This document shows, one piece after another, positions 11,127 through 29,707 of a stretch of 36,500 nt of DNA. Within the stretch, counting starts at the first letter, position 1, and each line of letters starts with the position of its first letter. This DNA comes from a virus: positions 1 through 36,500 of the IMG/VR virus record IMGVR_UViG_3300009103_001760. One strand, written 5' to 3'. A program made the position numbers and the translations under genes. The notes beneath the pieces are model-generated. The model was not told where the DNA came from, made no database searches, and saw nothing but the letters and a program-made list of their open reading frames with translations.

Positions 11127-11276
11127 ATGGTATTCGACGATTACAGCACTTACGACTGGGGGTTTATTACAATAGTTGTGGCCTGTGTGGTCTTTGGATT
11201 ATTTAAAAAGTGTGAAGACAAGCCGTGCAGAAGGTCAAAGGGGCTGCTTGACTATCTATTCAACGATGAGGAATGA
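11127..11276 (+). CDS. 49-residue membrane protein
   Basis: A short ORF two bases after the actin-like gene. The product has a short N-terminal polar part, one hydrophobic span (WGFITIVVACVVFGLF) and a basic, Cys-containing tail (KKCEDKPCRRSK) ending in NDEE. Spacing suggests the same transcript as the ATPase. No family recognised. Confidence 0.5.
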   Translation: MVFDDYSTYDWGFITIVVACVVFGLFKKCEDKPCRRSKGLLDYLFNDEE

Positions 11277-11287
11277 GGTTATAAAAA

Positions 11288-13690: not shown

Positions 13691-13695
13691 TCTGC

Positions 13696-13724
13696 TTGAC
13701 ATGCCAGCACCTGAGTTCTATATT
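13696..13724 (+). promoter_or_regulatory. near-consensus sigma70-type promoter of the glycan operon
   Basis: TTGACA (13696-13701), a 17-nt spacer and TATATT (13719-13724) form an almost ideal housekeeping promoter in the 56-nt gap before the first gene of the long operon. The upstream TCTGC is shared with the promoter at 4598. No operator-like repeat is visible around it. It suggests direct use of the host RNA polymerase. Confidence 0.75.
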
Positions 13725-13746
13725 CTAACTGTAAGAGGACCTACAT

Positions 13747-14292
13747 ATGAATAGACTGAAAGGAATGAAGACTTATTTAGTCGGGGCGATGGACAGACTT
13801 CCAGACGCCGGTGCTGGCTGGAGGTCCGACATAACGCCCTTTCTAGAGGGCAGGGGGGTGTCTGTACTGAACCCGTGTAAAAAACCCATAGATGTTGGCG
13901 TGGAAGACGATCACGCAAGAAACCTTGTTTCTATGTACAAAAAAACCGGCCAATTCGATAAGATAAGAAAAGAATTTGGTGTCATAAGAACGGTTGATTT
14001 AAGGTGCGTAGACATCTCTGACTTTATAATAGCAAATATAGATGTAGATGTACATACTTGCGGAACGTATGAAGAAATAGCGACAGCCAACAGACAAAAA
14101 AAGCCTGTTTTAATTTGGTGTCAACAAGGCAAAAGTGAGGCACCCAATTGGTTATTTTACATGCTCCCTCATGAGCATATCTTTAGTTGCGTAGAAGATT
14201 TAAAGTTTTACTTACAGCACATCGACTCAAGTGAAGAAGTGCATCATCATAAGAGGTGGTTTTTCTTTGATGAGGAGGCTGTAGATGTATAA
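13747..14292 (+). CDS. nucleoside 2-deoxyribosyltransferase-like protein
   Basis: A 181-residue protein of the nucleoside deoxyribosyltransferase / Toll-IR-like alpha/beta fold: YLVGAMDRLPDAGAGWR at the N-terminus, the segment DLRCVDISDFIIANID in the middle, then CGTYEEIATANRQKKPVLIW with the conserved Glu of the GTxEE motif. Family members exchange bases between nucleosides or hydrolyse nucleotides; phage versions may act in nucleotide salvage. I chose ATG 13747 because GAGGA lies 8 nt upstream. It is the first gene after the promoter but is not obviously linked to glycan synthesis. Confidence 0.75.
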   Translation: MNRLKGMKTYLVGAMDRLPDAGAGWRSDITPFLEGRGVSVLNPCKKPIDVGVEDDHARNLVSMYKKTGQFDKIRKEFGVIRTVDLRCVDISDFIIANIDVDVHTCGTYEEIATANRQKKPVLIWCQQGKSEAPNWLFYMLPHEHIFSCVEDLKFYLQHIDSSEEVHHHKRWFFFDEEAVDV

Positions 14293-15013
14293 AGTAACAG
14301 TTATTACCTCTATCTTTAGGGGAAAAGAATACCTGCCTTCGTTTCTTGAGAATGTATTAGAGCAAACTGCATTTGAAGAATGTGAATGGTATCTGTTGGA
14401 TGCAGCAAGTCCGGACGATGAATTTTCAGTTATCGAACCATATCTTACTCACAAAAATATAAGATATGAAAGATTAGATTTAGACCCCGGCATATATGCC
14501 TGTTGGAATTATATGATTAATAACTCTGATAGCGAATATATAACCAATGCAAATATAGATGATAGACTGTTTCCAAACTCTATAGAAAAACATATCAAGG
14601 AACTGGACAAGAATCCTGACTATGACTTGGCATATTCAGAAAACATAATGACGTACGAACCAAATGCTCTGTACCAATATTATTTAGATGGAAACCCTTT
14701 CATATTATATCCCGGAGGACCATTTAATAGACAAGATATGCTCATTCGTAATTATCCGCACAGTCATCCCATGTGGAGAAGGTCTCTGCACGATAGATTT
14801 GGAACATTTGAAGAAAAATATAGATCGGCAGGGGACTATGAATTTTGGCTACGCTGTTTACATGGAGGGGTGAAAGATTTTTTATATATGAATGATATAT
14901 TGGGTATTTATTACCACAACCCTGTCGGTATCTCTACTAAAGAATCTTTAAGAGCCTCGACCCAGAAAGAAGAGCAAGAAATAAAATCTAAATACGTGAG
15001 TTTAGGAATTTAA
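14285..15013 (+). CDS. GT2-family glycosyltransferase
   Basis: A 242-residue GT-A fold enzyme: VTVITSIFRGKEYLPSFLEN at the N-terminus is the typical nucleotide-binding beginning, followed by EWYLLDAASPDD and NANIDDRLFPN, in which the Asp pair is the DxD-type metal site. The later segment SAGDYEFWLRC matches the acceptor-site 'ED/GDYEFWLR' motif of GT2 enzymes. It lacks membrane spans. It transfers a sugar from an NDP donor to a glycan; donor and acceptor cannot be read. GAGGAGG lies directly before the start. Confidence 0.88.
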   Translation: MYKVTVITSIFRGKEYLPSFLENVLEQTAFEECEWYLLDAASPDDEFSVIEPYLTHKNIRYERLDLDPGIYACWNYMINNSDSEYITNANIDDRLFPNSIEKHIKELDKNPDYDLAYSENIMTYEPNALYQYYLDGNPFILYPGGPFNRQDMLIRNYPHSHPMWRRSLHDRFGTFEEKYRSAGDYEFWLRCLHGGVKDFLYMNDILGIYYHNPVGISTKESLRASTQKEEQEIKSKYVSLGI

Positions 15014-15014
15014 T

Positions 15015-15953
15015 ATGCCGATGGACTTAGAAAAAATACTTAGAGACAACCGATTGTTCTGGCAATATCCAGCGTGTACAGAAAAACAATTCTATTTACA
15101 GAACAGTCATGATGAAACCTATATAGGATTTCCTTGGGCAACGGTCATTGATAAAGATATACGTGGTACCAAAGACCTCCAAAGTAAATTTAACATCGTA
15201 AAACAATTGATTGAACCCTCTATTGACAAGGATCAAGAATATTACACCTGTTGCCAAAGCATATTCTTTCGTCAACTTGCAGAGTTGCTTGAGTCCCTGA
15301 ATATTAAAAATATTTATACTACCCATAAAAAAATAGGAGAAGAAACCCTAGGCTCCATGTCTTTGTTTCCCTGCCCTCTATATGCTGTTAATGCAGAAGA
15401 CAAGACACGCAACTCGGCCTTTTTGAATAAAGACTTCAGCAAGATAGAAAGAAGTCTGCTTTTTAGTTTTATAGGTTGTTATAGGGGGGACTATCTAAGT
15501 GACATCAGGGGTAAGATATTGAGATTAAAAGATGACGATGCATACATCCGAAGCCTTGACAACTGGCACTTTGATGAAATAGTTTACACCTCTAAGCAAA
15601 ACTATGAACATGCCTACGAAGTTTCCCAAACCCACAATCAAAGGACAGAATTATATAACAAAGTATTACTAGATTCTAGATATTCTCTTTGTCCATCTGG
15701 CACGGGCCCTAATTCGATCAGATTCTGGGAGAGTTTAGCGGTGGGGTCGATACCGGTGTTACTGGCAGACACACTAGAGTTACCTAAAAATGACATGTGG
15801 GATGAAGCAATACTGAGGGTCAGAGAAAAAGATTTAGAGGCTGTTCCTGATTTGTTGAGAAGCATAAGCCAAGAAGAGGAAGAATGCAGAAGAGGCAAAT
15901 GTCTGGAACTCTATAGTTTTTATAGGAGTAATTATAAAAATGATAAGGGTTAA
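15015..15953 (+). CDS. exostosin-like (GT47-type) glycosyltransferase
   Basis: A 312-residue protein with the C-terminal exostosin signature SRYSLCPSGTGPNSIRFWE (221-239), then VGSIPVLLADTLELP, and the preceding LLFSFIGCYRG. In eukaryotes this family makes heparan sulfate; bacterial and viral members are capsule or LPS glycosyltransferases. There is no signal or transmembrane segment, so it acts in the cytoplasm. Two ATG codons (15015, 15021) are possible; AGGAA spacing favours 15015. It overlaps the next gene by 14 nt. Confidence 0.85.
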   Translation: MPMDLEKILRDNRLFWQYPACTEKQFYLQNSHDETYIGFPWATVIDKDIRGTKDLQSKFNIVKQLIEPSIDKDQEYYTCCQSIFFRQLAELLESLNIKNIYTTHKKIGEETLGSMSLFPCPLYAVNAEDKTRNSAFLNKDFSKIERSLLFSFIGCYRGDYLSDIRGKILRLKDDDAYIRSLDNWHFDEIVYTSKQNYEHAYEVSQTHNQRTELYNKVLLDSRYSLCPSGTGPNSIRFWESLAVGSIPVLLADTLELPKNDMWDEAILRVREKDLEAVPDLLRSISQEEEECRRGKCLELYSFYRSNYKNDKG

Positions 15954-16506
15954 AAAAGAGTTATCAAAATTGGTAAATGAATTTGATTTTCTGAATTGCC
16001 TTGAAACCGGTACAATAAGAACCTATACTGAAAAACATGAGAGTACTCGACACATTTCTAACTTAATCGGAGCAAAGGGTAGTCTCAAGTCAATTGATAT
16101 CGAGCAGAAATCAATTGATATCTCCAAAGATATTTGCGACAATGCCGTCAACGTAGAATGGATCTTGAGTGACTCCATTGAGTATCTCAAGAACGACGAC
16201 GATGAATATCATTTTGTGTTTTTGGACAGCGTTAATGATCCAGAGCATATATTTGAGGAATTTAAGCTTGTGTCTAAACGAATACATGTCGACGGCATAT
16301 TAATGATAGATGATGCTGGGGTTGGGTTGGACAAACAGCCCCTTAAAAATGATTGGGTCTACGCCCCCAGAAAAGCCGTACAAGTAAATGAGTTTTTATC
16401 TAGTGTAGATATTGATTATGAGATTGTTGTCGGAGGGCACGCGGGAAATCAGCTACTTCTCAAGTTAACACAGGATAATGCCCAAAAAATAAAGGAATCG
16501 TTATGA
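15940..16506 (+). CDS. class I SAM-dependent methyltransferase-like protein
   Basis: A 188-residue protein of Rossmann methyltransferase type. The SAM-binding region begins CLETGTIRTYTEKHESTRH, with SIDIEQKSID as the acidic loop after strand 2 and YHFVFLDSVND as the strand-4 motif, then GILMIDDAG. This arrangement resembles the Methyltransf_24 group, found in glycan clusters. The substrate (sugar hydroxyl or other) is unknown. It starts 11 nt after AGGAG and overlaps the next gene at ATGA. Confidence 0.75.
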   Translation: MIRVKKELSKLVNEFDFLNCLETGTIRTYTEKHESTRHISNLIGAKGSLKSIDIEQKSIDISKDICDNAVNVEWILSDSIEYLKNDDDEYHFVFLDSVNDPEHIFEEFKLVSKRIHVDGILMIDDAGVGLDKQPLKNDWVYAPRKAVQVNEFLSSVDIDYEIVVGGHAGNQLLLKLTQDNAQKIKESL

Positions 16507-17204
16507 CAACAATATTTACTTCTCATAAATTCTCGCTTAATGAGTGTCCTCCAAATTTGCAGAAAAATCTCAGCCTTTGGAGTTCTCTCAACCCATCTTA
16601 TGAGTTCAAATATTATAATGATGAAGAAATGAATAGATGGATGAAAAAAAATTCCGACAAGGAAACGCTTTCTCTGTTTAATAAACTAAACTCTGGCGCT
16701 GGAAGGGCAGATGTATTTCGTGTCTGTCATTTATACGTAGAGGGCGGCGTTTGGGCTGATGCTGATCTTCCAGCATTTGATATAAGCAAACAGCGCCCAG
16801 ATTTTCAGGAGCTTCTATCAGAAAATGAAGGAATTCTAGTTCACAACAGAAAATGCAATGAACCGAGATACACCCTTATGGCAAGCATGAAGAACAACGA
16901 TATCTTTGCAAAACTTAACCGATGTATTAATGAACAGATCAATGTCGCTATACAAACTAATTCGAAACTTGGAACTATACACATTACCGGCCCCTTTGTT
17001 TTACATAAAATGTTATGCGATCTATTGGATCTTGAAAGCATAAAGGGCCTTGCCAGAGAGTCTAAGCACCTCACCTTTGTATATATTAATGACATCGTCC
17101 CAGAGAGAGACACATATCAAGAAGAGAATGTCTATGTCGGATATGCAGAAGACTTGCGACTAATAGGCGTTACTCCTCACGGAGCCATTAGGGGAGTGGG
17201 GTAG
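16503..17204 (+). CDS. GT32-type glycosyltransferase (DxD, capsule/LPS type)
   Basis: A 233-residue enzyme with the GT32 layout: N-terminal WSSLNPSYEFKYYNDEEM, the conserved RADVFRVCHLYVEGGVWADAD segment in two parts (RADVFR at 68-73; GGVWADAD at 81-88) whose D86-A-D88 is the metal-binding DxD, then MASMKNNDIF and HITGPFVLHKML. This family transfers mannose, galactose or similar sugars in capsule and LPS synthesis. Overlaps the previous gene by 4 nt. Confidence 0.88.
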   Translation: MTTIFTSHKFSLNECPPNLQKNLSLWSSLNPSYEFKYYNDEEMNRWMKKNSDKETLSLFNKLNSGAGRADVFRVCHLYVEGGVWADADLPAFDISKQRPDFQELLSENEGILVHNRKCNEPRYTLMASMKNNDIFAKLNRCINEQINVAIQTNSKLGTIHITGPFVLHKMLCDLLDLESIKGLARESKHLTFVYINDIVPERDTYQEENVYVGYAEDLRLIGVTPHGAIRGVG

Positions 17205-17206: not shown

Positions 17207-17938
17207 ATGAAAACTGCAATATGTTTGGCGGGAACCGGAAGACAGATTGATTATACTTTTGATAACTTAAAAGAATACTTGATCCAAGACATAAAAAATT
17301 CAGATATCATAGTCTACATAACAAAAAATGACAATTCAGACAAGGCGAGACTATGTTTTGAAAAATTAGAAAACACTTATATACATATCGTCGAAGAAAC
17401 TCCAATTGATATTACGCCGTTTAAATTTCAATATAAATGGCCCCCAAATCCGGCGATGAACCATGCTCTCGGAAGACAGATATATCTACAAATGTTAAAA
17501 TCGAGGCTACATATTAATTATCTTATAGATCACACAGAAGAAATAACGAATAAAAAGTATGACAGAGTTATTTTTTCAAGAATGGATGTTGTATATGAAA
17601 AACCTGTCTACGATTTGATTAAAGATTTAGAACTACTTTCCAACTTGGTTTGGGTTCCAAGCTTTCACAACTGGGGAGGCTCCAATGATCGGTTTGCCGT
17701 TTCAAATAGAGAGGGCATGGAAAAATATTTTTCCCTTTATAAACACGTAGAAAAATATTGTCAGCAAGGACACATGCTACACGCTGAAAGTACCCTAAAA
17801 CATCATTTAAATAACATGGAAATGGATACTAGAAGATTTGATATTCGTTTTGCCAGATACAGACATGGAGAGCAGCACGATGATTTTAACGCCATTGCGA
17901 CACAGGGAGATTTCATTAGTCCGTTCAGAGAGGCATAA
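17207..17938 (+). CDS. putative glycosyltransferase of the 'R-M-D' capsular type
   Basis: A 243-residue protein: MKTAICLAGTGRQIDYTF at the start, DRVIFSRMDVVYEKP in the centre and NDRFAVSNREGMEKYFSLY later. This combination, with an R-x-D motif in place of DxD and a 'N-D-R/Q-F' segment, is seen in uncharacterised capsule-cluster proteins annotated as glycosyltransferases. No membrane segment. Donor and acceptor are unknown. Confidence 0.65.
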   Translation: MKTAICLAGTGRQIDYTFDNLKEYLIQDIKNSDIIVYITKNDNSDKARLCFEKLENTYIHIVEETPIDITPFKFQYKWPPNPAMNHALGRQIYLQMLKSRLHINYLIDHTEEITNKKYDRVIFSRMDVVYEKPVYDLIKDLELLSNLVWVPSFHNWGGSNDRFAVSNREGMEKYFSLYKHVEKYCQQGHMLHAESTLKHHLNNMEMDTRRFDIRFARYRHGEQHDDFNAIATQGDFISPFREA

Positions 17939-18763
17939 ATGAGATACTTAATCTTGGGATCAAGTGGGCAAGTTGGTCATGCCCTGTGTAACTATTATGA
18001 GCTAAAGGGACATATAGTAGATAGGTTTGACATAGCGTCTGACGCCAAAGAAGACCTAAGAATCGATAACGATCCCCTGCTGCATAACAAGATGAAGAAG
18101 GCCGACTTTGTTTTCTTCTTAGCTTTCGATGTTGGGGGTTCTCGATATCTTAAAAAGTATGAAAAGACTTTTAGCTTTATGCATAATAATATAAAGATAA
18201 TGTCCAACACCTTTAGCATGCTGGAGCGTACCAAGAAGCCTTTTATCTTCACTTCAACTCAAATGTCAAATATGGGACACTCATCCTATGGGTCTTTAAA
18301 AAAGATAGGCGAATGGTATACAAAAATACTAGGAGGAATAGTTGTAAAATTCTGGAATGTCTATGGTATAGAGCCAGACCTTGAAAAGTCGCATGTCATA
18401 ACAGACTTCATACTCAAGGCCAGAGACACTGGCGTTATTGATATGCTTACAGATGGTACAGAAAAGAGACAGTTTTTATATAGTGAGGATTGTTGTGAGG
18501 CTCTAGATGCGGTATGTAACAACTATGTAGACATTGACAGGGATGAGGAGATGCACATCACCACGCACGAGTGGAGCAGCATCTTAGAGGTAGCACATGA
18601 AGTAGTGAATAATTTTCCGGCAGAAATAGTGCCGGGTGAAAACAAAGATACACTACAAAAGGGAAAGGTCAATGAGGCAGATCCATATATATTAAACTTT
18701 TGGAAACCTAAAACGTCCTTAGCAGAGGGAATCAGGAGAGTGTGTGAGTATTATGAAGAATGA
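17939..18763 (+). CDS. NAD(P)-dependent epimerase/dehydratase (extended SDR)
   Basis: A 274-residue extended SDR. The nucleotide-binding motif is GSSGQVG (7-13), the catalytic candidates are Ser106 in FTSTQMS and Tyr117/Lys121 in SSYGSLKK, and the later segment GTEKRQFLYSEDCCEAL matches the 'R-x-F-x-Y-x-x-D' motif of NDP-sugar epimerases. It probably modifies an NDP-hexose (epimerisation, reduction or dehydration). The exact reaction is not readable. It lies between glycosyltransferase genes and overlaps the next gene by 11 nt. Confidence 0.85.
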   Translation: MRYLILGSSGQVGHALCNYYELKGHIVDRFDIASDAKEDLRIDNDPLLHNKMKKADFVFFLAFDVGGSRYLKKYEKTFSFMHNNIKIMSNTFSMLERTKKPFIFTSTQMSNMGHSSYGSLKKIGEWYTKILGGIVVKFWNVYGIEPDLEKSHVITDFILKARDTGVIDMLTDGTEKRQFLYSEDCCEALDAVCNNYVDIDRDEEMHITTHEWSSILEVAHEVVNNFPAEIVPGENKDTLQKGKVNEADPYILNFWKPKTSLAEGIRRVCEYYEE

Positions 18764-19382
18764 AGAAGCTTTTACAAAGATGCTGGAAATTGCCATGCGA
18801 AATGAACAAGATATTGATGAGCATCTGTTGACATTATTCTCTTTGGTAATATCAATGAAGCCCAAACATATCATTGAGCTTGGGGTGAGGACTGCACGCA
18901 GCACCTATGCTTTCCTGTTTGGCTGCCACATTGTAGGTACGAAACTCACTTCCGTCGATATAAACCAGCCACGGCCTAACCTGCACTCTCCGGAGCAGTG
19001 GAAAGAAAACTGGACTTTTATTAAAAGTGACTCTTTAGAATTTTTACAGGATAAGTTCCCATCAATTTGGGGCGATCAACCTGATCGTGGAGGCATCATA
19101 TACATAGATGATTGGCATGATGGAGAGCATGTTTCCAAAGAGCTATCGCTTATATCTGAGTATGTCGGCCCAGAAGATGTAATACTGCTACATGATTTGA
19201 TGTACGGAAACTCACAGCCACACTATAGATCTGTTGAAAATTCCCCCGGACAGTGGGATAATGGAGGGCCATATAAGGCTGTAGCAAGCTTGGATCTTGA
19301 CTGTTGGGAGTATGCTACAATACCTAGATGTCATGGAATGACAATTTTAAGAAAAAAATCAACAAAGGTAAGAAATGTCTGA
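18753..19382 (+). CDS. class I SAM methyltransferase-like protein (Methyltransf_24 type)
   Basis: A 209-residue protein: HIIELGVRTARSTYAFLFG is the SAM-binding motif, KLTSVDIN the post-strand-2 acidic residue, and GGIIYIDDWHDGEHVSKEL the strand-4/5 region with IDDxHD typical of Methyltransf_24 and cephalosporin-hydroxylase-like proteins. I take ATG 18753 (GGAGAG upstream) over an in-frame GTG at 18744. It could methylate a sugar. It overlaps the sialyltransferase-like gene by 8 nt. Confidence 0.72.
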   Translation: MKNEEAFTKMLEIAMRNEQDIDEHLLTLFSLVISMKPKHIIELGVRTARSTYAFLFGCHIVGTKLTSVDINQPRPNLHSPEQWKENWTFIKSDSLEFLQDKFPSIWGDQPDRGGIIYIDDWHDGEHVSKELSLISEYVGPEDVILLHDLMYGNSQPHYRSVENSPGQWDNGGPYKAVASLDLDCWEYATIPRCHGMTILRKKSTKVRNV

Positions 19383-20112
19383 CATATCTCTTGACAAGAA
19401 CCTGCTTTCTTTAACAGATGGGAAGCGTGTAGCCGTAGTCGGCCCTGCTCCATATCTGATTGGTTCTGGTGACGGGACTAAAATAGATGAATATGATTTA
19501 GTAGTTCGCCCTAACGCTTTCTCAGTCCCCTCAGACTTGAGGCAAGACTATGGTTCTAGAACAGACATTATGTTTCACAATTTAGGAACCCCTTGGCAAG
19601 AGGGACTAAAGGAACAAATCAAAAACGATCAAGAGTCGTTCAAAAATCTTAAAATGGTTGGATGCCTTGCAACTAAGTCACAGCATTCAGAGACGAACTT
19701 TCTTAGCTGGCCCGAGGGTCACGTTAGTAATGTTGTCAGGAACTTTAATGAAATAAATAAATATGACGTTCCTTTTTATTGGATTGGGAACAAAGACTAC
19801 AGAACACTATATAATGAAATAGGAGTCGAGCCAAATACAGGCATCATGACGATAACGGTATTGCTTCGATACCCTATTTCAGAACTCTTTGTAACTGGCT
19901 TTAGCTTTTACCTGCAAGGGAATACACACGACGCAACATACTATCAGGGATTTTTGGCAGAGGCAGACAAAAAAAAATACAGAGGGGTGTATGGGAAGAG
20001 GCATGGAGATCGTGCGAACCGTATTCAAATTGAGTTTTTCAAAACGCTGGCAAAAGAAAATTCTTCCGTTCTTAAGGCAGATAAAACGATTAAGAAACTT
20101 TTAGGTCTGTAA
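19375..20112 (+). CDS. GT29/sialyltransferase-like protein
   Basis: A 245-residue protein with a sialyltransferase-like motif series: VAVVGPAPYL (19-28), IDEYDLVVRPN (37-47), GSRTDIMFHN (60-69), PNTGIMTI (153-160) and LFVTGFSFY (171-179). The 'VVG-x-G ... D-x-V-x-R-x-N ... P-N-T-G' order is the core of GT29-related viral and bacterial proteins that use CMP-activated nonulosonic acids. The neighbouring NeuB-like and cytidylyltransferase genes would supply exactly such a donor. There is no N-terminal anchor, unlike animal enzymes. Activity is inferred; some relatives may use other donors. Confidence 0.72.
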   Translation: MSDISLDKNLLSLTDGKRVAVVGPAPYLIGSGDGTKIDEYDLVVRPNAFSVPSDLRQDYGSRTDIMFHNLGTPWQEGLKEQIKNDQESFKNLKMVGCLATKSQHSETNFLSWPEGHVSNVVRNFNEINKYDVPFYWIGNKDYRTLYNEIGVEPNTGIMTITVLLRYPISELFVTGFSFYLQGNTHDATYYQGFLAEADKKKYRGVYGKRHGDRANRIQIEFFKTLAKENSSVLKADKTIKKLLGL

Positions 20113-20867
20113 TGATCTACCCACAATTATTTAATAATGATTCAATCAAACTTCAAGGAGTGCCATATTATGTAGATTGCTACAAATTTTGGGATTTGAA
20201 TCATTGCGCCGAGTCTTTTCAAGGCAGAGATTATACGGAGTTAATCGACAGGGTGGTGTCGGGCAATCAAAGACCTTGGAATGAAAATCTCATGGCTATA
20301 GATTTTTCTGAGTACAACAATGAGTATGAAAGATATGAAAAATCCCTATCAAAAAATGTTCGTAGAGATGTCACACAGTCCAAAAGAAGAGGGTTCGTAC
20401 TAAAAAAATATGACTTCAACTCCTTTATACATGATTTTTTGGAAATCAATCACTCTCAAAAAGAGCTTAAGGGAAGTATTAATCCTTGGTATTTAAATGG
20501 TGTTGATTTTTTTACAGGGTCTGATTCAGGATGTCGTCACCTGTGGGAAGACGGTAGACATTATAGTGAGTGGTATGGAATCTTCAGGCACTTAAAACAT
20601 TATAAGCAGGGAGAAGTTAAAACAAACGAAAAGCTGTATGCATATTGCAAAGTTTTGGTGGACGGAGAGATGGCTTCCGTAGGTCTTGTTTGGGCTCACG
20701 CACAATACCTAAAGCATGGACTAATGTTCAACCTAATAATATCAATTGTAGAAAAGCTAATGCTTACTGAAAATATAAAATATTTTATTTACTATGGGGC
20801 CGGGCAATATCCTAAATGGAAAGAGCGAATGCTGTTTAAGTCAACGAAAGTAAAACTAGAACTATGA
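20112..20867 (+). CDS. FemAB/GNAT-like acyltransferase
   Basis: A 251-residue protein. The segment YEKSLSKNVRRDVTQSKRRG (about 74-93) resembles the 'R-R-x-I-x-x-S-x-x-x-G' motif that opens FemAB- and GNAT-type domains in glycan clusters, and the C-terminal half (KLYAYCKVLVDGEMASVGLVW, cited here in part; then LMFNLIISIVEKLM) looks like the GNAT beta-sheet and CoA-proximal helix. It could N- or O-acylate the aminosugar made by the aminotransferase at 21731. Similarity is weak, so function is tentative. It ends 3 nt before the tRNA-like locus. Confidence 0.5.
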   Translation: MIYPQLFNNDSIKLQGVPYYVDCYKFWDLNHCAESFQGRDYTELIDRVVSGNQRPWNENLMAIDFSEYNNEYERYEKSLSKNVRRDVTQSKRRGFVLKKYDFNSFIHDFLEINHSQKELKGSINPWYLNGVDFFTGSDSGCRHLWEDGRHYSEWYGIFRHLKHYKQGEVKTNEKLYAYCKVLVDGEMASVGLVWAHAQYLKHGLMFNLIISIVEKLMLTENIKYFIYYGAGQYPKWKERMLFKSTKVKLEL

Positions 20868-20869
20868 AT

Positions 20870-21005
20870 GGGGAAATAGTTTAAAGGGAAAACATTCAAC
20901 GTGCTATGAATTAAAAGGTGGTGGTTCAAATCCGCCTTCGTAGTTTAACTGGAAGAACAATTAATTCGCATTTGAAAGATGGAGGTTCGAGTCCTCCTTT
21001 CTCCA
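20870..21005 (+). tRNA. fused or interrupted tRNA-like locus (two D arms, two T arms, one acceptor stem)
   Basis: The outer parts form one acceptor stem: GGGGAAA (20870-20876) with TTTCTCC (20998-21004), discriminator A21005. Between them are D arm 1 (GTTT/AAAC, 20879-20893), T arm 1 (GGTGG-TTCAAAT-CCGCC, 20920-20936), D arm 2 (GTTT/GAAC, 20943-20958) and T arm 2 (GGAGG-TTCGAGT-CCTCC, 20981-20997). Only TTCGTA separates T arm 1 from D arm 2, so no inner acceptor strands exist. TTCAA (20895-20899) pairs perfectly with TTGAA (20972-20976): removing the 65 nt 20900-20964 would leave a standard 71-nt cloverleaf with loop TTCGCAT and anticodon CGC (Ala). Either two adjacent tRNA genes were fused by a deletion, or one is interrupted in its anticodon loop. 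CCA is not encoded. Confidence 0.7.
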
Positions 21006-21017
21006 CTATATTTTGTT

Positions 21018-21734
21018 ATGAAAAGTATATTTATATCAGTCAGGTCAAATTCAACAAGGCTGCCAAATAAAGCAACCGCAGATATATGTGGCAAAAAATC
21101 TATAGAGTATCTGATAGATAACCTAAAAAGGTCTCAAGAAAGCTCTGACATCGTTCTCTGCACAACAACATCCTATAAAGATGATATCTTATGCGATATA
21201 GCTAGTGATAAGGAGATAAGGTTTTTTCGAGGGTCAGAAGAAGACAAATTGCAAAGATGGCTCGGGGCCTGCAAGGAATTTAACATAGAGATGTTTGCTG
21301 AATGCGGAGGCGATGACATCTTCTGTGACTATAGGCTGATTGATCTAGTGTTAAAAGAATACGAATTATATAAGCCGGACTTTATTGACGGCAAAGATCT
21401 ATATAACGATGTGTATGGAATGACAAGAGACCTTTTAGAAAAAGTTTGCCATCAAAAGAAAGATGAGATACTGGAGACACATGAAGTGTCAGACTATATA
21501 AAAAGCAGCAAGGTTAAGTATCATAGACTCAAGAATGTAAGCGACATTTTTCAGAAAAGATACAGGCTGACGCTAGATTACAAAGAAGATTTAGATTTTT
21601 TTAGGACAGTTGTAAAAAGCTTAGACAATGAGTTTGAGCTTGAAGATATAATTGAATTGCTTGATAGCAACCCTGAAATAGCAAGTATGAATTTATTTCT
21701 AGAGGATGAATGGAGAGATAATCAAAACAAATGA
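21018..21734 (+). CDS. SpsF/NeuA-type cytidylyltransferase
   Basis: A 238-residue nucleotidyltransferase beginning MKSIFISVRSNSTRLP. The signature RSNSTRLPNKA (9-19) is the nucleotide-binding loop of the CMP-sugar synthetase / SpsF group; IVLCTTTSYKDD and FFRGSEEDKLQRW match the next SpsF segments ('T-T ... D-D' and 'R-G-S-E-x-D-x-L-x-R'). It should activate a sugar with CTP, most simply the product of the NeuB-like enzyme at 22940. An in-frame ATG at 20979 lies inside the tRNA-like T arm and is rejected. ATG 21018, 12 nt after that locus, lacks a clear Shine-Dalgarno. The 3' end overlaps the aminotransferase at ATGA. Confidence 0.82.
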   Translation: MKSIFISVRSNSTRLPNKATADICGKKSIEYLIDNLKRSQESSDIVLCTTTSYKDDILCDIASDKEIRFFRGSEEDKLQRWLGACKEFNIEMFAECGGDDIFCDYRLIDLVLKEYELYKPDFIDGKDLYNDVYGMTRDLLEKVCHQKKDEILETHEVSDYIKSSKVKYHRLKNVSDIFQKRYRLTLDYKEDLDFFRTVVKSLDNEFELEDIIELLDSNPEIASMNLFLEDEWRDNQNK

Positions 21735-22939
21735 AGTCAGATAAATACGCAGGAAATGAATTGAAGTATATACAGATGGCTCTCAATGGAGAGAGTGCTC
21801 CTAATCAAACTTGGTGCAGAACCCTAGAGCAGTCCTTTGCAAAAGCATTTGGAGCTAAATATGCTATAGCTATGAACTCAGGCACAGCAACTCTTCATGC
21901 TGCGCTTGAGGCTGTAGGCGTCTCTCATGGAGATGAGGTAATATGTCCTGCAATAACGGTTATTATGAACACGACCACTGTCTGGCAATGCAACGCCATA
22001 CCAGTTTATGCAGACATTGATCCAGAAACGCTTCTAATTGACCCAGACGATATAGAAAGAAAAATAACGGACAAAACAAAAGCTATTGTTGTTGTGTCTC
22101 TCTATGGATTACCGTGCGACATGGATAGGATTAATGAAATCTCGGCCAAATATAATATACCTGTGGTAGAAGATCACGCACAATGTTTTCTTGGTGAATA
22201 TAAAGGAGAGGTTGCAGGGGTATCGAATGCTTTTTCAAGTTGGAGCTTTGAAAGCGTAAAGCATTTAAGCTGCGGAGAAGGAGGTATATTATTGACCAAT
22301 GATGAAGATTATGCTCAACGCGCAAGAAAGGTGGGTGGTCATGGGTATAAAAATCTATCTGGGGACGGGGGTAGAATCAAGTTCAATGGAGAAACGACAG
22401 TACAAGACCCCACATATAAGAGACATGATGAGTTTGGTATAAATTACAGACTAAGCGAGTTCAGCGCAGCTATTGCCCTTGCGCAACTCGAAGATATGAA
22501 ACACAAAGTTGATAGAAGGAAGGGGGTTGCCTCTTTATTTCTAGAAGAACTAGAGGGTTGTGAGTTCTTAATACCACAGAAAGTCCCTGATAACCGAGTC
22601 CACTCGTACTACACTCTCGGATTAATATACAAACAAGAAAAAAACAAGGGACACACTTGGCAAGACTTCAGAGATAAATATGTGGAGTTTGGAGGAGATA
22701 ATTTTTATGCTGCTTGGAGCATACCATACTTTGAACCCGTTGTGTCTGAAAGAAAATATGTAGAAAGATGCCCTGATGTTTATCAAGACATATCCTACGA
22801 ACAAGGATTATGTCCTGTGGCGGAACTTATACAGCCAAAGATTATGCAGTTTAAAACTAACTACAGAGATATTAGCGTGGCCGAAGATAAGGCAAAAGCC
22901 CTTAAGAAAACCATCAATTACTTTAATGAGGAACAATAA
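21731..22939 (+). CDS. DegT/DnrJ/EryC1-family PLP sugar aminotransferase
   Basis: A 402-residue, full-length aminotransferase: NSGTATLHAAL (49-59, PLP phosphate-binding), VVEDHAQ (145-151, with the Asp that contacts the PLP ring nitrogen) and the Schiff-base Lys177 in SFESVKHLSCGEGG. The later segment FGINYRLSEFSAAIAL is also typical. Such enzymes transaminate NDP-4-keto or 3-keto sugars, as in the routes to legionaminic and pseudaminic acids and in SpsC. Placement between the cytidylyltransferase and the NeuB-like gene mirrors spore-coat and flagellar nonulosonate clusters. Confidence 0.92.
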   Translation: MKSDKYAGNELKYIQMALNGESAPNQTWCRTLEQSFAKAFGAKYAIAMNSGTATLHAALEAVGVSHGDEVICPAITVIMNTTTVWQCNAIPVYADIDPETLLIDPDDIERKITDKTKAIVVVSLYGLPCDMDRINEISAKYNIPVVEDHAQCFLGEYKGEVAGVSNAFSSWSFESVKHLSCGEGGILLTNDEDYAQRARKVGGHGYKNLSGDGGRIKFNGETTVQDPTYKRHDEFGINYRLSEFSAAIALAQLEDMKHKVDRRKGVASLFLEELEGCEFLIPQKVPDNRVHSYYTLGLIYKQEKNKGHTWQDFRDKYVEFGGDNFYAAWSIPYFEPVVSERKYVERCPDVYQDISYEQGLCPVAELIQPKIMQFKTNYRDISVAEDKAKALKKTINYFNEEQ

Positions 22940-23770
22940 ATGGTATATATCATTTCTGAGATAGGTATTAATCATAACGGGGACGAGTCTCTAGCAAAAA
23001 CCCTTATTAAAAAGTCTTATGAGGCAGGGGCCGACGCCGTCAAATTTCAAAAGCGACATATTGACTCAGTGTACACGAAAGAAGAGCTAGACAAACCCAG
23101 AGAGTCTCCTTGGGGGGCCACTAACAGAGAACAAAAAGAGGGACTAGAATTCTCTATTGAGCAATATAAAGGCTTAAAGCTTTACTCAGAATCTTTGGGG
23201 GTAGACTTCATTATGTCCTGCTGGGACACAAAAAGCGTTGATGCCGTTGAGTGTTTAGATATTCGATACCACAAGGTGGCATCTGCCCTTGTGACCGACA
23301 AAGAATTTTTAGAAAAACTAAACAAAACTAAAAAGCCTGTCATACTTTCAACCGGCATGTGTACAGAAGATGAGATTGAGGCTGCTACTAAAATTCTTAA
23401 TAGCGTGGAATATGTGCTTTGCTGCACAAGTACATACCCAACGGATGTATCGGAATTAAATCTTCGACATATAAGTACACTGCAAAAAAAGTACCCACGT
23501 TTAAAGATTGGTTTTTCTAATCATTATAATGGTCATGATGCCTGTGTAGCTGCAACCGCCCTTGGCGCAGAGTGTATCGAATTTCATATTACACACGACA
23601 GAACTGCATATGGATCAGATCAATCGGCATCTATTGAAAATGCAAAAGTTTTGGTTGATGCTATTCGTAAAGTTGGTGTCATGCTGGGGGATGGGGTAAA
23701 AAGGGTTTATGATACAGAAATACCGATATCTAAAAAATTAAGAAAGGTTTCAGATACATGTCTCGGCTAA
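22940..23770 (+). CDS. NeuB/SpsE-type nonulosonic (sialic) acid synthase, lacking SAF domain
   Basis: A 276-residue TIM-barrel enzyme that would condense phosphoenolpyruvate with an aminosugar. Family motifs are EIGINHNG (7-14), VKFQ (34-37), STGM (137-140), CTSTYP (162-167), GFSNH (191-195) and EFHITHDR (214-221). Together these contain the metal- and PEP-binding residues. Typical NeuB proteins are about 340 residues and end in an antifreeze-like SAF domain that reaches into the partner's active site. That domain is absent here, with only a short Lys/Arg-rich C-terminus. GAGGA lies 8 nt before the ATG. It overlaps the next gene by 13 nt. Confidence 0.9.
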   Translation: MVYIISEIGINHNGDESLAKTLIKKSYEAGADAVKFQKRHIDSVYTKEELDKPRESPWGATNREQKEGLEFSIEQYKGLKLYSESLGVDFIMSCWDTKSVDAVECLDIRYHKVASALVTDKEFLEKLNKTKKPVILSTGMCTEDEIEAATKILNSVEYVLCCTSTYPTDVSELNLRHISTLQKKYPRLKIGFSNHYNGHDACVAATALGAECIEFHITHDRTAYGSDQSASIENAKVLVDAIRKVGVMLGDGVKRVYDTEIPISKKLRKVSDTCLG

Positions 23771-24495
23771 TCGGTCCTATGCTTGGTAGGCTAACTAGCT
23801 TAAAGCATAGTTCGTCTGGTCAAGAATTTCCAGATAATTGGGAAAATGAGTTAAGGTGTTTAAAAAGCATTGGAGCTAGTTGTTTAGAGTGGCTGGTTGT
23901 TGATACAGAAAAAAATCCTTTATACGACAACGATCTATCAAAATATCCAATTACTTCGATTAATGTTCATGCCTTAGTTATGGAAAGATTAGGTTTTTTT
24001 GAATTGGACAAAATTTGTCTAAATGCCTGTAGGCAGGGAATTTTTCGGTTAGTTTTGCCCATGATGGAGGCTTCATCTATAAAAAGTGATAGCGAGATTG
24101 ACATATACCAAGAACTATCGAAAAAATATCCAAAGCTTTCATTCTCGTTTGAAACAGAACTGAGTGCTTCTGAAATATTACCAATTCTTAATATGTCAAA
24201 TAATTTTTTTGTGACATATGACACTGGAAATACAACATGCTATAATTTTGATCATGAAAAAGAAATACAAACTCTTAGAAATAAAATTGATAACGTTCAC
24301 CTAAAAGATAGGATACGGTCTGGAGGCCCTTCTGTTGAGCCTTTTACTGGTAATACGGATTTCAAATTAATATTTGGATGCCTAAAAAAAATACAATACA
24401 ACGGGGCTTTTATACTCGAAACATTTAGGGGTCCATCAGGAAAAGAAGTAGATACTGTTTCTCGGCACATAGAGAGATTTAAATGTTTGATTTAA
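23758..24495 (+). CDS. xylose-isomerase-like TIM-barrel sugar isomerase/epimerase
   Basis: A 245-residue protein of the sugar phosphate isomerase/epimerase group. Motifs include ETE around residue 132 (metal-ligand Glu), YDTGN (154-158), NVHLKDR (179-185) and GNTDF (198-202), followed by FILETFRG; in relatives these Glu, Asp and His residues bind a divalent metal. It would interconvert keto and aldo sugars or epimerise a sugar phosphate. Its place directly after the NeuB-like gene (13-nt overlap) suggests that it makes or recycles that enzyme's substrate. Confidence 0.8.
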   Translation: MSRLIGPMLGRLTSLKHSSSGQEFPDNWENELRCLKSIGASCLEWLVVDTEKNPLYDNDLSKYPITSINVHALVMERLGFFELDKICLNACRQGIFRLVLPMMEASSIKSDSEIDIYQELSKKYPKLSFSFETELSASEILPILNMSNNFFVTYDTGNTTCYNFDHEKEIQTLRNKIDNVHLKDRIRSGGPSVEPFTGNTDFKLIFGCLKKIQYNGAFILETFRGPSGKEVDTVSRHIERFKCLI

Positions 24496-25244
24496 CTGGT
24501 AAAACAGCGTTTATAACTGGTGGGGCAGGACTTCTAGGTAGAAAGCACGCTGAAGCTATAATTGAATTCGGAGGAACTGTCATAGTAGCTGATATAGACA
24601 TAGAGTTGGCAGAAAAGGCCTGTGAGAAACTCGGGGAATCCGCAACACCTGTTTATACAGATGTAAACTGCAAATCCTCCATTCAGGAAGCTGTTAATAA
24701 ATTTAATAAAATTGACATATTAATAAATAATGCAGCAAAAGATCCTAAGGTAGATAGCTTATCTTATGAAACTAAATTTGAAAACATGACGGAGGAGTTT
24801 TGGGCAGAGGGAATTGGAACAATATTAAATGGCACCTTCCTGTGTTCACAAGTTATAATTAATAAGATGGTAAGTACTGGCGGAGGTGTCGTATTAAATA
24901 TTGCGTCGGATTTAGGCGTCATTTCTCCAGACCAAAGAATATATGAAAAAAATAGCCCTAAGCCAATAACCTATTCAGTCGCTAAGTGGGGTGTCATAGG
25001 AATGACCAAGTATCTAGCCACATACTTTCTGGGAAAGAATATAAGAGTAAATTCGCTTTCTCCAGCGGGTGTCTATGTTGATCAACCTAAAAAATTTGTT
25101 AAAAAGATTTCTAAATTGATACCAATGGGACGCATGGCTCATGTGGACGAGTATAAAGGGGCTGTGGTTTTTATGTGCTCTGATGCAAGCTCTTACATGA
25201 ATGGAGAAAACTTGGTGGTAGACGGAGGAAGGTCTGTATGGTAA
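24483..25244 (+). CDS. short-chain dehydrogenase/reductase (classical SDR, PtmA-like context)
   Basis: A 253-residue classical SDR: TGGAGLLG (12-19) for NAD(P), NNAA (82-85), Ser142 in NIASDLG and catalytic Tyr164-x-x-x-Lys168 in TYSVAKWG. The C-terminal NGENLVVDGG is also standard. SDRs of this type (PtmA in the Campylobacter flagellar legionaminate locus) occur beside NeuB-type genes. The substrate may be a keto-sugar intermediate. It overlaps the isomerase gene by 13 nt and the next gene by 7 nt. Confidence 0.9.
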   Translation: MFDLTGKTAFITGGAGLLGRKHAEAIIEFGGTVIVADIDIELAEKACEKLGESATPVYTDVNCKSSIQEAVNKFNKIDILINNAAKDPKVDSLSYETKFENMTEEFWAEGIGTILNGTFLCSQVIINKMVSTGGGVVLNIASDLGVISPDQRIYEKNSPKPITYSVAKWGVIGMTKYLATYFLGKNIRVNSLSPAGVYVDQPKKFVKKISKLIPMGRMAHVDEYKGAVVFMCSDASSYMNGENLVVDGGRSVW

Positions 25245-26182
25245 AATGTCATGCTCTATTCACGGGGCTCTTCAGAAAAGAGGGAATGCCCCCCGAAAAA
25301 AAAGTAAGGCTCCTAAAAGAAGCGGGAGTAGAGGTTCATTGGTATACATGGAAGGGCTATGTAACCGAGGAAGCAACTTTATTAGATATAAATATAGTTG
25401 AGATAGAAGAACCTAAAGATATGCCCCACTCAGGTATTATGGGAAGGCAAAGGCAAATATTAAATGTTAAAACTGGGCTAGAAAATATACCTGAAGATGA
25501 CATTGTCTTGAAAGCTAGGTGGGACGTAGACTTCAATCAAACTACAATCGAAAATATTACAAATAAAAACTTTTTTGAACCTATAAAAAATGGGGCGATA
25601 AATAACAAGATTTGGACCGGTTTTTATAGCATACAAGAACTTTTCGGTGTGTCAGACCATATGTACGCTGGCTATCAAAGAGATTTAAATAAATTGATTC
25701 AGTATAAATATATAATAGGGGGCATTTCATCTGATCATTATATCTCTCACGATGGTATGCAATTGATGCCTGTGTTGATTGCGCATAACGAAGAGGTTTG
25801 TGAAATTATAAAGCTTAAAGATCCAGACCCTTGGTCCTTAATGTTTAAAGAATCTCATGTTAAAGACAAAAAATATATAACGACATGGGCTTATTCCTAC
25901 TATCTATTAAATAAGTATTTTAAAACAGGCCCGCAAGGAACTTGTTGCTTTACGAAAGGAGACAGAGATCCTAATAAGCCGAGATTGCCGGGGGCTGTGG
26001 TGGATTATGAAAAATTTTATGAAAATTATAAAACCATAATATCTAATGAAGGAAGACTTTGCGACTACCCTAGGTACAGGGTTTATGATGATATTTTTGT
26101 TAAGCGCCTTGTCAATGGAGAATATGCAGATAGTTTCGCTGATTCAATTTCCAGTGAAATTGAGGAAAGAGAGTGGTCATGA
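25238..26182 (+). CDS. WavE-like / capsular glycosyltransferase-like protein
   Basis: A 314-residue protein with FTGLFRKEGMPPE at the N-terminus, GIMGRQRQILNVKTGLEN, then DDIVLKARWDVDF. The 'R-Q-x-Q-I ... G-L ... V-L-K-x-R-x-D' order is that of WavE-family LPS proteins and related R-x-D glycosyltransferases; the R-W-D replaces the usual R-T-D. It shares this type of motif with the protein at 17207. GGAGGAAGG precedes the start. Role in the pathway is unknown beyond probable sugar transfer. Confidence 0.65.
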   Translation: MVKCHALFTGLFRKEGMPPEKKVRLLKEAGVEVHWYTWKGYVTEEATLLDINIVEIEEPKDMPHSGIMGRQRQILNVKTGLENIPEDDIVLKARWDVDFNQTTIENITNKNFFEPIKNGAINNKIWTGFYSIQELFGVSDHMYAGYQRDLNKLIQYKYIIGGISSDHYISHDGMQLMPVLIAHNEEVCEIIKLKDPDPWSLMFKESHVKDKKYITTWAYSYYLLNKYFKTGPQGTCCFTKGDRDPNKPRLPGAVVDYEKFYENYKTIISNEGRLCDYPRYRVYDDIFVKRLVNGEYADSFADSISSEIEEREWS

Positions 26183-27345
26183 GCAATCTTTTGGTAACAA
26201 TGTCTGGAGGAACCACCTCTGTTATAAATGCAACTTTAGCTGGAATTGTCGATGCTGCTAGGAGATCAAGTCAAATTGATAAAGTTTACGCTGGGTATCC
26301 CGGCATGTTGGGTGTTTTTAAAGAGAATTTTTTAGATTTAACTGATAGCCCTCTATATATTTTAAAAGATAGCCCCGGATCATCATCTATTGGAACAACT
26401 AGGGTGGAAATTTTTGATGATAATAAATTAAAGCACCTGTCTGAAATATTCGATAAACATAACATTAAATATTTTATTAACATAGGTGGCAATGGAACTA
26501 TCAAACAATCCAAACTAATTGCCTCTAAGATTAAAAATATTAGCATAGCCGCAGCGCCTAAAACAGTTGATAATGATTTAGGAGACTCCAGCTTTGAAAA
26601 ACTTTGGTTTACTCCGGGATTCCCAAGTTGCGTAAATTATTGGTACCATAAAATGAGAATGTTAAATAATGAAAATATGGGTGCCCACACCCACGACAAA
26701 GTTATTATCGCCCAAACATTTGGGAGAAAAACTGGGTTCATTGTTGGCGCAATGCGGATGTTTGATCCGCAAAGGGAGCTACCTTTGATATTGCTAATGC
26801 CAGAAGACCAGCAGCCTCCCAACAAAGTGATTGAAAAAATTGAAAGTCTTTTATCTAAACATGATCGTGCAATGGTAGGTATATGTGAAGGATACGAAAT
26901 ATGTAACTATGATTTTGCATACGACAAAACGGGGCAAGAGATGTATGGGTCTAGTTCTTCTAGCTCTATGCAGGAGCTAATAAATCTATGTATAAAAAAT
27001 AATATTCAAGCGAGAGGGTATAACCCCACTGTTGATCAAAGGCAAAATTTTGAATATACTTTACATTCTGATTCAAAGATATCTTATGAGATTGGAAAAG
27101 AAATTGTTCATAATTTTATGAGAGGAAGAAGCCATTTTTTACAGTCATATTCCAAGGCAGGACTTCACGATATAGAACTTAACGACATAAATAATTTTTC
27201 TAGAGTGATGAAAAATGAATGGGTTGACTGGAATAATTTTGATGTGTCTGATGAATACCTTAATTATCTAAATGAATTTATTAAAATTCAAAAACACGTA
27301 CCTATTCCGCAGCGTAAGCTTTTTGTTAAAGGAGAAGCCGTATGA
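26179..27345 (+). CDS. phosphofructokinase (PfkA)-family sugar-phosphate kinase, PPi-type motif
   Basis: A 388-residue protein with the complete PFK-A layout: MSGGTT near the N-terminus (family G-G-x-x-x-G/x), GGNGT (103-107, family GGDxS/T), PKTVDND (127-133), TPGFPS (145-150), GRKTGF (182-187) and CEGYE (236-240). PKTIDND with Lys is the pyrophosphate-dependent form, whereas ATP enzymes have PGTIDND. Asn and Gly in GGNGT are unusual. I start it at ATG 26179 (ATGA overlap, purine stretch upstream) rather than GTG 26173. In this cluster it more likely phosphorylates a pathway sugar phosphate than drives glycolysis. Confidence 0.85.
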   Translation: MSNLLVTMSGGTTSVINATLAGIVDAARRSSQIDKVYAGYPGMLGVFKENFLDLTDSPLYILKDSPGSSSIGTTRVEIFDDNKLKHLSEIFDKHNIKYFINIGGNGTIKQSKLIASKIKNISIAAAPKTVDNDLGDSSFEKLWFTPGFPSCVNYWYHKMRMLNNENMGAHTHDKVIIAQTFGRKTGFIVGAMRMFDPQRELPLILLMPEDQQPPNKVIEKIESLLSKHDRAMVGICEGYEICNYDFAYDKTGQEMYGSSSSSSMQELINLCIKNNIQARGYNPTVDQRQNFEYTLHSDSKISYEIGKEIVHNFMRGRSHFLQSYSKAGLHDIELNDINNFSRVMKNEWVDWNNFDVSDEYLNYLNEFIKIQKHVPIPQRKLFVKGEAV

Positions 27346-28112
27346 ATTGGATATTTCCAATTGCTGGGTTTGGAACTAGAACCAAGGGCCTAGGCGAACA
27401 CAAGCCTTTTATAGAAATATCTCCCGGTCTTTCTGTAATTAAGGCGTGCCTTACCGGACTCAAGTCTATGTTTAAAGATGGGGACACCTTCACCTTTATT
27501 TCAACAAAACAGCATGAAGCAGAATATGATGTAACTAATAAAATTTTCTCAATAATGTCTGATATCAAGCAGGAGCAAGTTTTTTGCGGTTTCGTGGGTA
27601 GGTGCGACACGAAAGTTTTTCTTCTCAACGAGACACCTCCGGGGCAGGCACTAACCCTTTTACAAGGACTGTCTCCTCATGAAAAAATGTGGCCAGATGA
27701 AATTGTTAGTCAGCCAAGTATTGTTGTAAACTCTGATCAGTTTGTCATGTTTGATATCAATAGTATTAAACAAGACATTCCTTCGGTGGGAGTATATTTC
27801 AACGATGGAGATAAGTCATGTTTCTTTGATATTGATTTATTCTCAGCCAAAGTTAATGAGATAAGAGAAAAGAAGAAGATAAGCTCATATGCCTCTTCGG
27901 GGGTATTTTATTTTCCTAGCATTAACGTTCTATTAGAAGCAGTGCGGTGGGGGGTTAAAAATAATGTTGTCACCAATGGAGAACTGTATTTATCTTCATG
28001 TTTAAACTACTTTTCTGAGATAAACTATTTTAAAACAGATATCAAATTTGACCTAGGAAATATTGATAATATAAGAAGGTTTAAAGATTTTTGGGAGGGC
28101 CTAGGGCAATGA
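27342..28112 (+). CDS. sugar-1-phosphate nucleotidyltransferase
   Basis: A 256-residue GT-A/NTP-transferase fold protein: IFPIAGFGTRTKGLGEHKPF carries the G-x-G-x-R ... K-P signature (9-22) that binds the NTP phosphates, and VVNSDQFVMFD is the product-side Asp motif. The rest matches NTP_transferase only loosely. It should make an NDP-sugar from a sugar 1-phosphate. The ATGA junctions to the kinase before it and the phosphatase after it suggest a three-step activation unit. Confidence 0.78.
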   Translation: MNWIFPIAGFGTRTKGLGEHKPFIEISPGLSVIKACLTGLKSMFKDGDTFTFISTKQHEAEYDVTNKIFSIMSDIKQEQVFCGFVGRCDTKVFLLNETPPGQALTLLQGLSPHEKMWPDEIVSQPSIVVNSDQFVMFDINSIKQDIPSVGVYFNDGDKSCFFDIDLFSAKVNEIREKKKISSYASSGVFYFPSINVLLEAVRWGVKNNVVTNGELYLSSCLNYFSEINYFKTDIKFDLGNIDNIRRFKDFWEGLGQ

Positions 28113-28399
28113 TAATATACGTAGACATAGATGAAACTATATGTTATTACGAGGGTGCTCGACATTACTCAGATGCAATTCCAATTAAAGAAAATATCGA
28201 TAAAATTAATCAGCTTTACGACGAAAACAATACTATAATCTATTGGACAGCCAGAGGTTCTACAACAGGAATTAACTGGAGGGACGTAACAGAGAGGCAG
28301 TTTAAAAAGTGGGGTGTTAAGCACCATGATTTAATACTGGGAAAACCGTCTTACGATCTTATTATTTGTGACAAATCCAAGAGGATAGAGGAAATATAA
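28109..28399 (+). CDS. small HAD-family phosphatase
   Basis: A 96-residue minimal HAD protein. The nucleophile motif is VDIDETIC (5-12, Asp6 and Asp8), the Thr/Ser motif YWTARGS follows, and the Lys and acidic motifs are in GKPSYDLIICDK. Members of this length are found in capsule clusters as sugar-phosphate phosphatases. Start is ATG 28109, which overlaps the previous stop (ATGA). In this context it may remove one phosphate from a bisphosphorylated sugar before nucleotidyl transfer. Confidence 0.85.
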   Translation: MIIYVDIDETICYYEGARHYSDAIPIKENIDKINQLYDENNTIIYWTARGSTTGINWRDVTERQFKKWGVKHHDLILGKPSYDLIICDKSKRIEEI

Positions 28400-29344: not shown

Positions 29345-29685
29345 GGGCACGATTTGGGTTCGACTGAATATTTGCACTTTTGGCTGCATTGAGTGGTTGG
29401 TCAACAGGCCACTATAAAAGTTGACTAGTTTTAATTGTCGAAAACCAAGTTTTCGCTTTGGCCGCTTAATTGTGGCGGAGTTTCCCTAACTCACTTGACA
29501 AAATAGGGATGACTCAGATATAATCTGATAGGTATGACTACCCGATAAAATAGTCTGATGGTGCTAATAGTATCTGACTCCGATAATCGGATAGTTTTGC
29601 GAGTTGTGCGATAACAATTCGATAACAATGTAGACGCTGATTGTAACGGTATTGCAGGACGCGGGTTCGATTCCCGCCGTGTCCA
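29345..29685 (+). ncRNA. ssrA: tmRNA (ssrA) encoding proteolysis tag ...ENQVFALAA
   Basis: The tRNA-like domain is clear: 5' GGGCACG (29345-29351) pairs with 3' CGTGTCC (29678-29684), discriminator A29685, with TTCGACTG near the 5' end and the T arm GCGGG-TTCGATT-CCCGC before the 3' strand. CCA is not encoded. The tag ORF follows GTC and reads E-N-Q-V-F-A-L-A-A-stop (29440-29469), ending in the ALAA degron recognised by ClpXP; the resume codon may be GTC or GAA, or one codon earlier. The rest contains pseudoknot-like pairings such as GAGTTTCCCTA with TAGGGATGACTC. tmRNA frees stalled ribosomes and tags the nascent chain. Confidence 0.93.
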
Positions 29686-29707
29686 CTTAGTAAGGGGGGT
29701 GAGGTAG

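Follow-up and report, generated by a model that had tools for sequence, protein, structure and literature searches.

A phage operon predicted to synthesise, activate and attach a sialic-acid-like 2-ulosonic sugar

The 36.5-kb fragment held as IMG/VR record IMGVR_UViG_3300009103_001760 and analysed here over its complete length of 36,500 nucleotides (hereafter, the window) contains a run of overlapping genes at 13.7-29.3 kb that is rich in sugar enzymes. Within it lies a cassette (19375-25244) encoding an enzyme with the fold of glycosyltransferase family 29 (GT29), an SpsF-type cytidylyltransferase, a DegT aminotransferase, a NeuB-family synthase, a TIM-barrel protein and a short-chain dehydrogenase (SDR), all in one overlapping operon (Table 1). 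As RIIA, RIIB, endonuclease VII, a one-piece tmRNA and tRNA-Ile are all present, the window is phage DNA. An earlier reading of the letters without database searches, the sequence-only reading, had proposed a cassette for nonulosonic acid (NulO) synthesis, activation and transfer comprising six open reading frames (ORFs) between 19375 and 24495. All six are indeed there, on the same strand and abutting or overlapping one another, but that extent overlooked both the SDR gene (24483-25244), which belongs to the conserved gene set, and a structured RNA (20870-21005).

Table 1. Features of the sugar operon in the window, and copies of its RNA in related viral loci
Feature	Coordinates	Strand	Basis or remark
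Glycosyltransferases (GT2, exostosin/GT47-like, DXD-type) and methyltransferase-like gene	14285..17204	+	PF00535, PF03016, PF04488; part of the cassette's operon
DUF7796 protein and NAD-dependent epimerase	17207..18763	+	PF25072, PF01370; GT29-associated
GT29-fold sialyltransferase-like glycosyltransferase, 245 aa	19375..20112	+	PF00777, AlphaFold2 model, motifs
Protein without family match, earlier called an acyltransferase	20112..20867	+	Homologues in L117, L119/L120, L209
Twin tRNA-like RNA	20870..21005	+	Rfam tRNA match, covariance model, covariation
SpsF-type cytidylyltransferase, candidate CMP-ulosonate synthetase	21018..21734	+	PF02348, 6oew
DegT/DnrJ/EryC1 pyridoxal-phosphate aminotransferase	21731..22939	+	PF01041 E 9e-76
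Short NeuB-family synthase without SAF domain, 276 aa	22940..23770	+	PF03102 E 2e-63, full domain
Xylose-isomerase-like TIM-barrel protein, candidate sugar isomerase/epimerase	23758..24495	+	PF01261 E 6e-11
PtmA-like SDR	24483..25244	+	PF13561 E 1e-39
Small HAD-like protein, candidate phosphatase	28109..28399	+	DxDxT, TARG motifs read from sequence
Copies of the twin RNA	window 20870-21005; L117 9487-9622; L119 8402-8537; L209 14044-14191

Profile searches upheld the families that had been named for the GT29, SpsF, DegT, NeuB and TIM-barrel proteins. The sialyltransferase-like product matches PF00777 above its cut-off (E 2e-8, 34.4 bits against 23), and an AlphaFold2 model from a six-sequence alignment, with a mean predicted local distance difference test (pLDDT) score of 83, reaches Z 13-14 to the mammalian ST6Gal1, ST3Gal1-type, ST8Sia3 and ST6GalNAc2 structures and about 10-11 to the bacterial GT42 enzymes CstI and CstII, so that profile and fold both keep it in GT29. 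Across six phage homologues the L-motif residues, an S-like motif (PNTG...GFSFY) and H210 are invariant.

The synthase falls squarely inside the NeuB family, and is identical to the Neisseria meningitidis enzyme at 12 of the 16 active-site positions examined. These are E25, K53, Q55, K129, S132, S154, Y186, S213, H215, E234, H236 and D247, while T110S, N184S, F112W and N74P are changed; thus the metal pair His215/His236 and most residues that contact phosphoenolpyruvate (PEP) or the sugar are retained. A SAF domain (PF08666) was found neither anywhere in the window nor in nine related viral records, and a candidate separate SAF partner at 28091 turned out to be the small HAD-like protein. In NCBIfam the synthase scores against the NeuB_NnaB and PseI profiles, and remains below the NeuB/PseI/LegI equivalog cut-offs (227 of 400 and 162 of 340 bits).

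The same pattern, of secure family and distant equivalog, extends to its neighbours. The cytidylyltransferase matches PF02348 (E 5e-14, 53.2 bits against a cut-off of 22.6) and PDB entry 6oew (E 5e-21), with every match to the NCBIfam KdsB/PseF equivalogs far below cut-off; a longer ORF would start at 20979, inside the RNA gene, and 21018 is therefore its likely start. It adjoins DegT and NeuB in seven further loci (L025, L026, L205, L210, L213, L221 and L028). The aminotransferase scores best against PseC (E 8e-58, 196 bits, cut-off 423) and LegC (E 4e-55), and the SDR matches PRK09186 and FlagModPtmA, both below cut-off. Further downstream, the small HAD-like protein has no Pfam match; in several viral loci its gene immediately follows NeuB, and it is probably an accessory of the cassette.

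How widely are these genes shared among viruses? By tblastn the window NeuB matches only 3 of 50,697 GenBank phage records, and a two-motif scan found relatives in at least 334 IMG/VR stretches, such motif scans giving lower bounds. One of these loci (L026, IMG/VR 3300030117_005808) has nearly the window's order, GT29-SpsF-DegT-NeuB-SDR2-TIM-SDR, and Marine virus AG-345-L05, classed in the Kyanoviridae, carries SDR-SpsF-DegT-NeuB-HAD together with an ORF read as psbA. Linkage was assessed by scanning profiles of the module genes over loci fetched by GT29, loci fetched by NeuB, and control loci fetched by a further sugar gene of this operon (the GDP-fucose-synthase-like gene at 28399), counting clusters of near-identical loci (38 control clusters). 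A cytidine monophosphate (CMP)-sugar synthetase lies within 8 kb in 20 of 26 viral GT29 clusters against 5 of 38 controls (p 3e-7), and NeuB in 7 of 26 against 3 of 38 (p 0.04); it is this linkage to CMP-sugar synthetases that suggests a CMP-ulosonate as donor for the GT29-fold enzyme. Around viral NeuB the association covers the whole set: CMP-synthetase in 53 of 59 clusters (controls 5/38), aminotransferase in 40 (1/38), SDR in 27 (0/38), TIM barrel in 21 (0/38) and HAD-like protein in 34 (6/38). The idea of a linked set for synthesis, activation and transfer of a CMP-ulosonate therefore held for GT29, NeuB and the cytidylyltransferase, which are linked in other phages above control.

When 49 viral NeuB sequences were placed in a tree with 47 bacterial ones, a single branch (support 100/92) united 36 of the viral sequences with one contig from a Pelagibacter metagenome-assembled genome, and the remaining viral sequences fell among the bacterial ones. 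That contig (L029, NZIO01000034.1, 9.2 kb), binned as Candidatus Pelagibacter, is possibly a misbinned phage contig or the product of a recent transfer. Pairs of related viral NeuBs have ratios of nonsynonymous to synonymous substitution of 0.063 and 0.069, as purifying selection on the encoded protein would leave. The accompanying aminotransferases belong to the DegT, class III or class IV types, which are mutually exclusive (overlap 1, expected 7.8, P 7e-5), and within the viral clade their type has switched on 10 or more occasions; we read this to mean that an amination step is required, and that the enzyme performing it can be exchanged. The single overlap is L209, a locus that holds two ulosonate modules back to back (5560-16822), NeuA-AT4-TIM-NeuB-SDR and SpsF-20112-RNA-DegT-NeuB, where 20112 is a homologue of the window gene of that start.

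We consider it probable, judging from these sequences, that the phage module synthesises an unusual 2-ulosonic, sialic-acid-like sugar, activates it and transfers it. From PEP and an aldose NeuB would form a 3-deoxy-2-ulosonic acid by condensation, with the TIM-barrel isomerase, the SDR and DegT preparing or tailoring the sugar, most likely by oxidation of a hydroxyl followed by transamination; once SpsF had joined the ulosonic acid to CMP, the GT29-fold enzyme would pass it on to a glycan. The likeliest acceptor is an envelope polysaccharide of the host, which would be remodelled in the course of infection, for instance to shut out competing phages. Oxidation and transamination of the sugar would also explain why no epimerase that hydrolyses a uridine diphosphate (UDP)-sugar is carried. 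The sequence-only reading had already noted that the hydrolysing step was not seen, and PF02350, the NeuC/LegG-type Epimerase_2 family, is indeed absent from the window and from the nine related viral records (mostly fragments; PseG was not searched separately), whilst it occurs in 11 of 14 control genomes. A precedent exists in Kdo8N synthesis, in which KdnB and KdnA act on the ulosonate itself; were the phage SDR and aminotransferase to work in a KdnB/KdnA-like manner on the free sugar or the ulosonate, no UDP-sugar hydrolase would be needed.

Several points weigh against this proposal. A different sugar of the operon could be what the aminotransferase and SDR act on. GT29 sialylmotif III is not seen and a standard VS motif is not obvious, H210 being the VS candidate. 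GT29 accompanies only 7 of the 59 viral NeuB clusters, and since most NeuB loci lack it, it is one of several possible transferases. Finally, the association tests use a single control gene and are uncorrected for phylogeny.

Alternative chemistries have to be set beside it. Unlikely is a deaminated or phosphate-based route to a Kdn- or Kdo-like ulosonate, in which an isomerase would supply an aldose phosphate, NeuB would convert it to the ulosonate phosphate, a HAD phosphatase would strip off the phosphate and SpsF would activate the product. The frequency of the small HAD-like protein at viral NeuB clusters fits such a route, as do SIS isomerases in 8 of the 59 clusters, an SIS protein in locus L008 and a HAD-SIS fusion that adjoins a related bacterial NeuB; yet it leaves the frequent aminotransferase unexplained, an SIS gene was not seen in the window, and the HAD-like protein, lacking any Pfam match, may serve another sugar. 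Unlikely too is a standard legionaminic or pseudaminic acid pathway split between phage and host, with the phage DegT as LegC/PseC, its NeuB as LegI/PseI, and the dehydratase and hydrolysing epimerase given by the host. The profile matches of both enzymes point that way, but the scores lie far under the equivalog cut-offs, Epimerase_2 is missing as described, the window NeuB has no SAF domain, and class III and IV aminotransferases occupy the same slot elsewhere. For the same reasons, the short SAF-less NeuB, the missing NeuC-type gene, the unreached NCBIfam cut-offs and the interchangeable aminotransferases, the cassette does not correspond to the standard NulO cluster that had been suggested.

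Where would the sugar go? The same chemistry could decorate the virion or the phage DNA, and the many glycosyltransferases in one operon would suit this; we regard it as distinctly unlikely, given that no structural acceptor gene is linked, that LPS-type (lipopolysaccharide) clusters of marine phages have been interpreted as altering the host surface (PMC7029224, PMC2984593), and that prophage genes have been shown to alter capsular nonulosonates (PMC12053666). It is on account of these published clusters and prophage changes that we favour the host envelope as acceptor. That the genes are stuffer or decaying host DNA without phage function, a possibility raised for cyanophage LPS clusters (PMC3037559), is scarcely credible in view of the intact, overlapping ORFs, the purifying selection on related viral NeuBs, their largely viral clade and the recurrence of conserved gene sets.

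Phage-encoded modification of host surface sugars is already known, and the cassette can be placed among several such systems and their bacterial counterparts. The best functional lead, by analogy, appears to be sfmABCDE of Shewanella oneidensis, which likewise pairs a short NeuB-domain synthase (SfmA, 290 aa) with a PtmA-like SDR (SfmC); deletion of sfmA or sfmC brings flagellin near its unmodified mass; the modification includes a putative nonulosonate of 274 Da, and the strain reportedly lacks several Pse enzymes (PMC3765264). Unlike the cassette, that system is bacterial and has a thiamine pyrophosphate enzyme, a methyltransferase and an ATP-grasp protein rather than SpsF, DegT, TIM barrel and GT29. 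The prophage genes epaA/epaB of Acinetobacter baumannii also change a surface nonulosonic acid and include a CTP_transf_3 domain, but they epimerise pseudaminic acid made by the host, with no synthase or transferase of their own described (PMC12053666). The T4-like cyanophages P-SSM2, S-SM2 and S-SSM7 share large sugar-gene clusters thought to change the host surface, in papers where neither sialic acid nor NeuB was found to be mentioned (PMC2984593, PMC3037559), and as a source of the cassette such clusters were rejected, the NeuB tblastn search missing all three phages. Bacterial GT29 sialyltransferases resemble the phage enzyme in their sialylmotifs and in lacking the eukaryotic membrane anchor; the study in question covers 23 bacterial sequences, and the words virus and phage are absent from it (PMC5811610). 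In the genomes that we sampled, PF00777 occurs in 8 of 398 from one phylum and in 4 of 292 from another. With the canonical NulO pathways (NeuBCA, Pse, Leg), lastly, the cassette has in common NeuB-family condensation and CMP activation, and differs in its SAF-less NeuB, in the NeuC-type gene not seen and in its exchangeable aminotransferases.

We found no open-access report of a phage with its own synthesis, CMP activation and GT29-type transfer of a sialic-acid-like sugar, which is weak evidence of novelty. The clade of 36 of 49 sampled viral NeuBs, with its exchangeable partners, suggests that an ulosonic acid pathway has long been kept by aquatic viruses. If it is the host envelope that is changed, this bears on superinfection exclusion and on grazing in plankton. 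Phage GT29 genes are also relevant to the proposal that eukaryotic sialyltransferases came from bacteria. The enzymes of the cassette are small and directly testable.

Between the GT29 and SpsF genes lie the protein gene at 20112 and, in the 150-base gap before SpsF, an RNA. The naming of the protein as an acyltransferase found no backing: it has no Pfam, PHROG, NCBIfam or PDB match, a single-sequence AlphaFold model has a pLDDT of 33, profile comparison with Acetyltransf_6 and FemAB members gave no match, and of four homologues a single one gave a weak GNAT hint (PF00583, E 0.11). Scanning viral contigs for peptide patterns brought up no relatives, and the homologues were recovered only by reading GT29 loci. 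They are 49, 49 and 29% identical in L117, L119/L120 and L209, in the same slot in the former two and near SpsF in L209; in L118, with otherwise similar flanks, both the homologue and the RNA are missing. Behind every homologue stands an RNA of 136-149 nt, starting -14 to +30 bases relative to the stop codon, so that protein and RNA go together in all four divergent phage groups, and do so at two separate positions of the module.

This twin RNA has two D arms, two T arms and a single acceptor stem, with the anticodon strands swapped between its bodies, which yields a single long helix interrupted by a conserved UAU bulge. ARAGORN overlooked it, and Rfam matches only its tRNA bodies (one in the window, at 32.6 bits; both in L119), without a family of its own. 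A covariance model built from the window, L117, L119 and L120 finds the L209 copy at E 2e-16; in the other loci searched there was no similarly strong, long match, the weaker ones being of ordinary tRNA length. Eight helix positions are compensatory over four sequences, in a register that we set ourselves and that leans towards the named structure (three pairs in the first alignment). Single-sequence folding is not clearly better than that of shuffles (z -0.07 to -1.3), and the structure therefore rests on covariation. A simple tandem-tRNA fold, with each anticodon stem within its own body, was rejected: by inspection it is not kept in L117 and L119, whereas the strand-swapped helix covaries. 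Perhaps protein and RNA form a paired add-on to the cassette, an aminoacylated RNA carrier from which the protein would transfer an aminoacyl group to the amino-ulosonic acid or its glycan; this link is speculation, and we hold it to be a long shot. If true, the phage would encode an RNA-dependent way of decorating a sialic-acid-like sugar, by means of a tRNA whose architecture is new. Two of these loci also carry wcaG RNA motifs (Rfam RF01761; L117 2711-2806, L119 3573-3672), some kilobases upstream of the GT29-SpsF module.

Of the other genes in the window, the DUF7796 protein and epimerase have homologues just upstream of GT29 in L018 and L026, and the sugar operon includes a phosphofructokinase-like protein (26173-27345) of the pyrophosphate-dependent subfamily (201 of 273 bits). 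Distant matches to RIIA occur in many phages, but in none of ten related records. An actin-like protein with a strong Volactin match (PF25216, E 2e-76) is encoded at 9943-11124. The one-piece phage tmRNA gene at 29345-29686 specifies the tag VENQVFALAA and matches a phage collection only in its 30-base tail; behind it, two DUF1501 proteins are encoded side by side (30855-33319).

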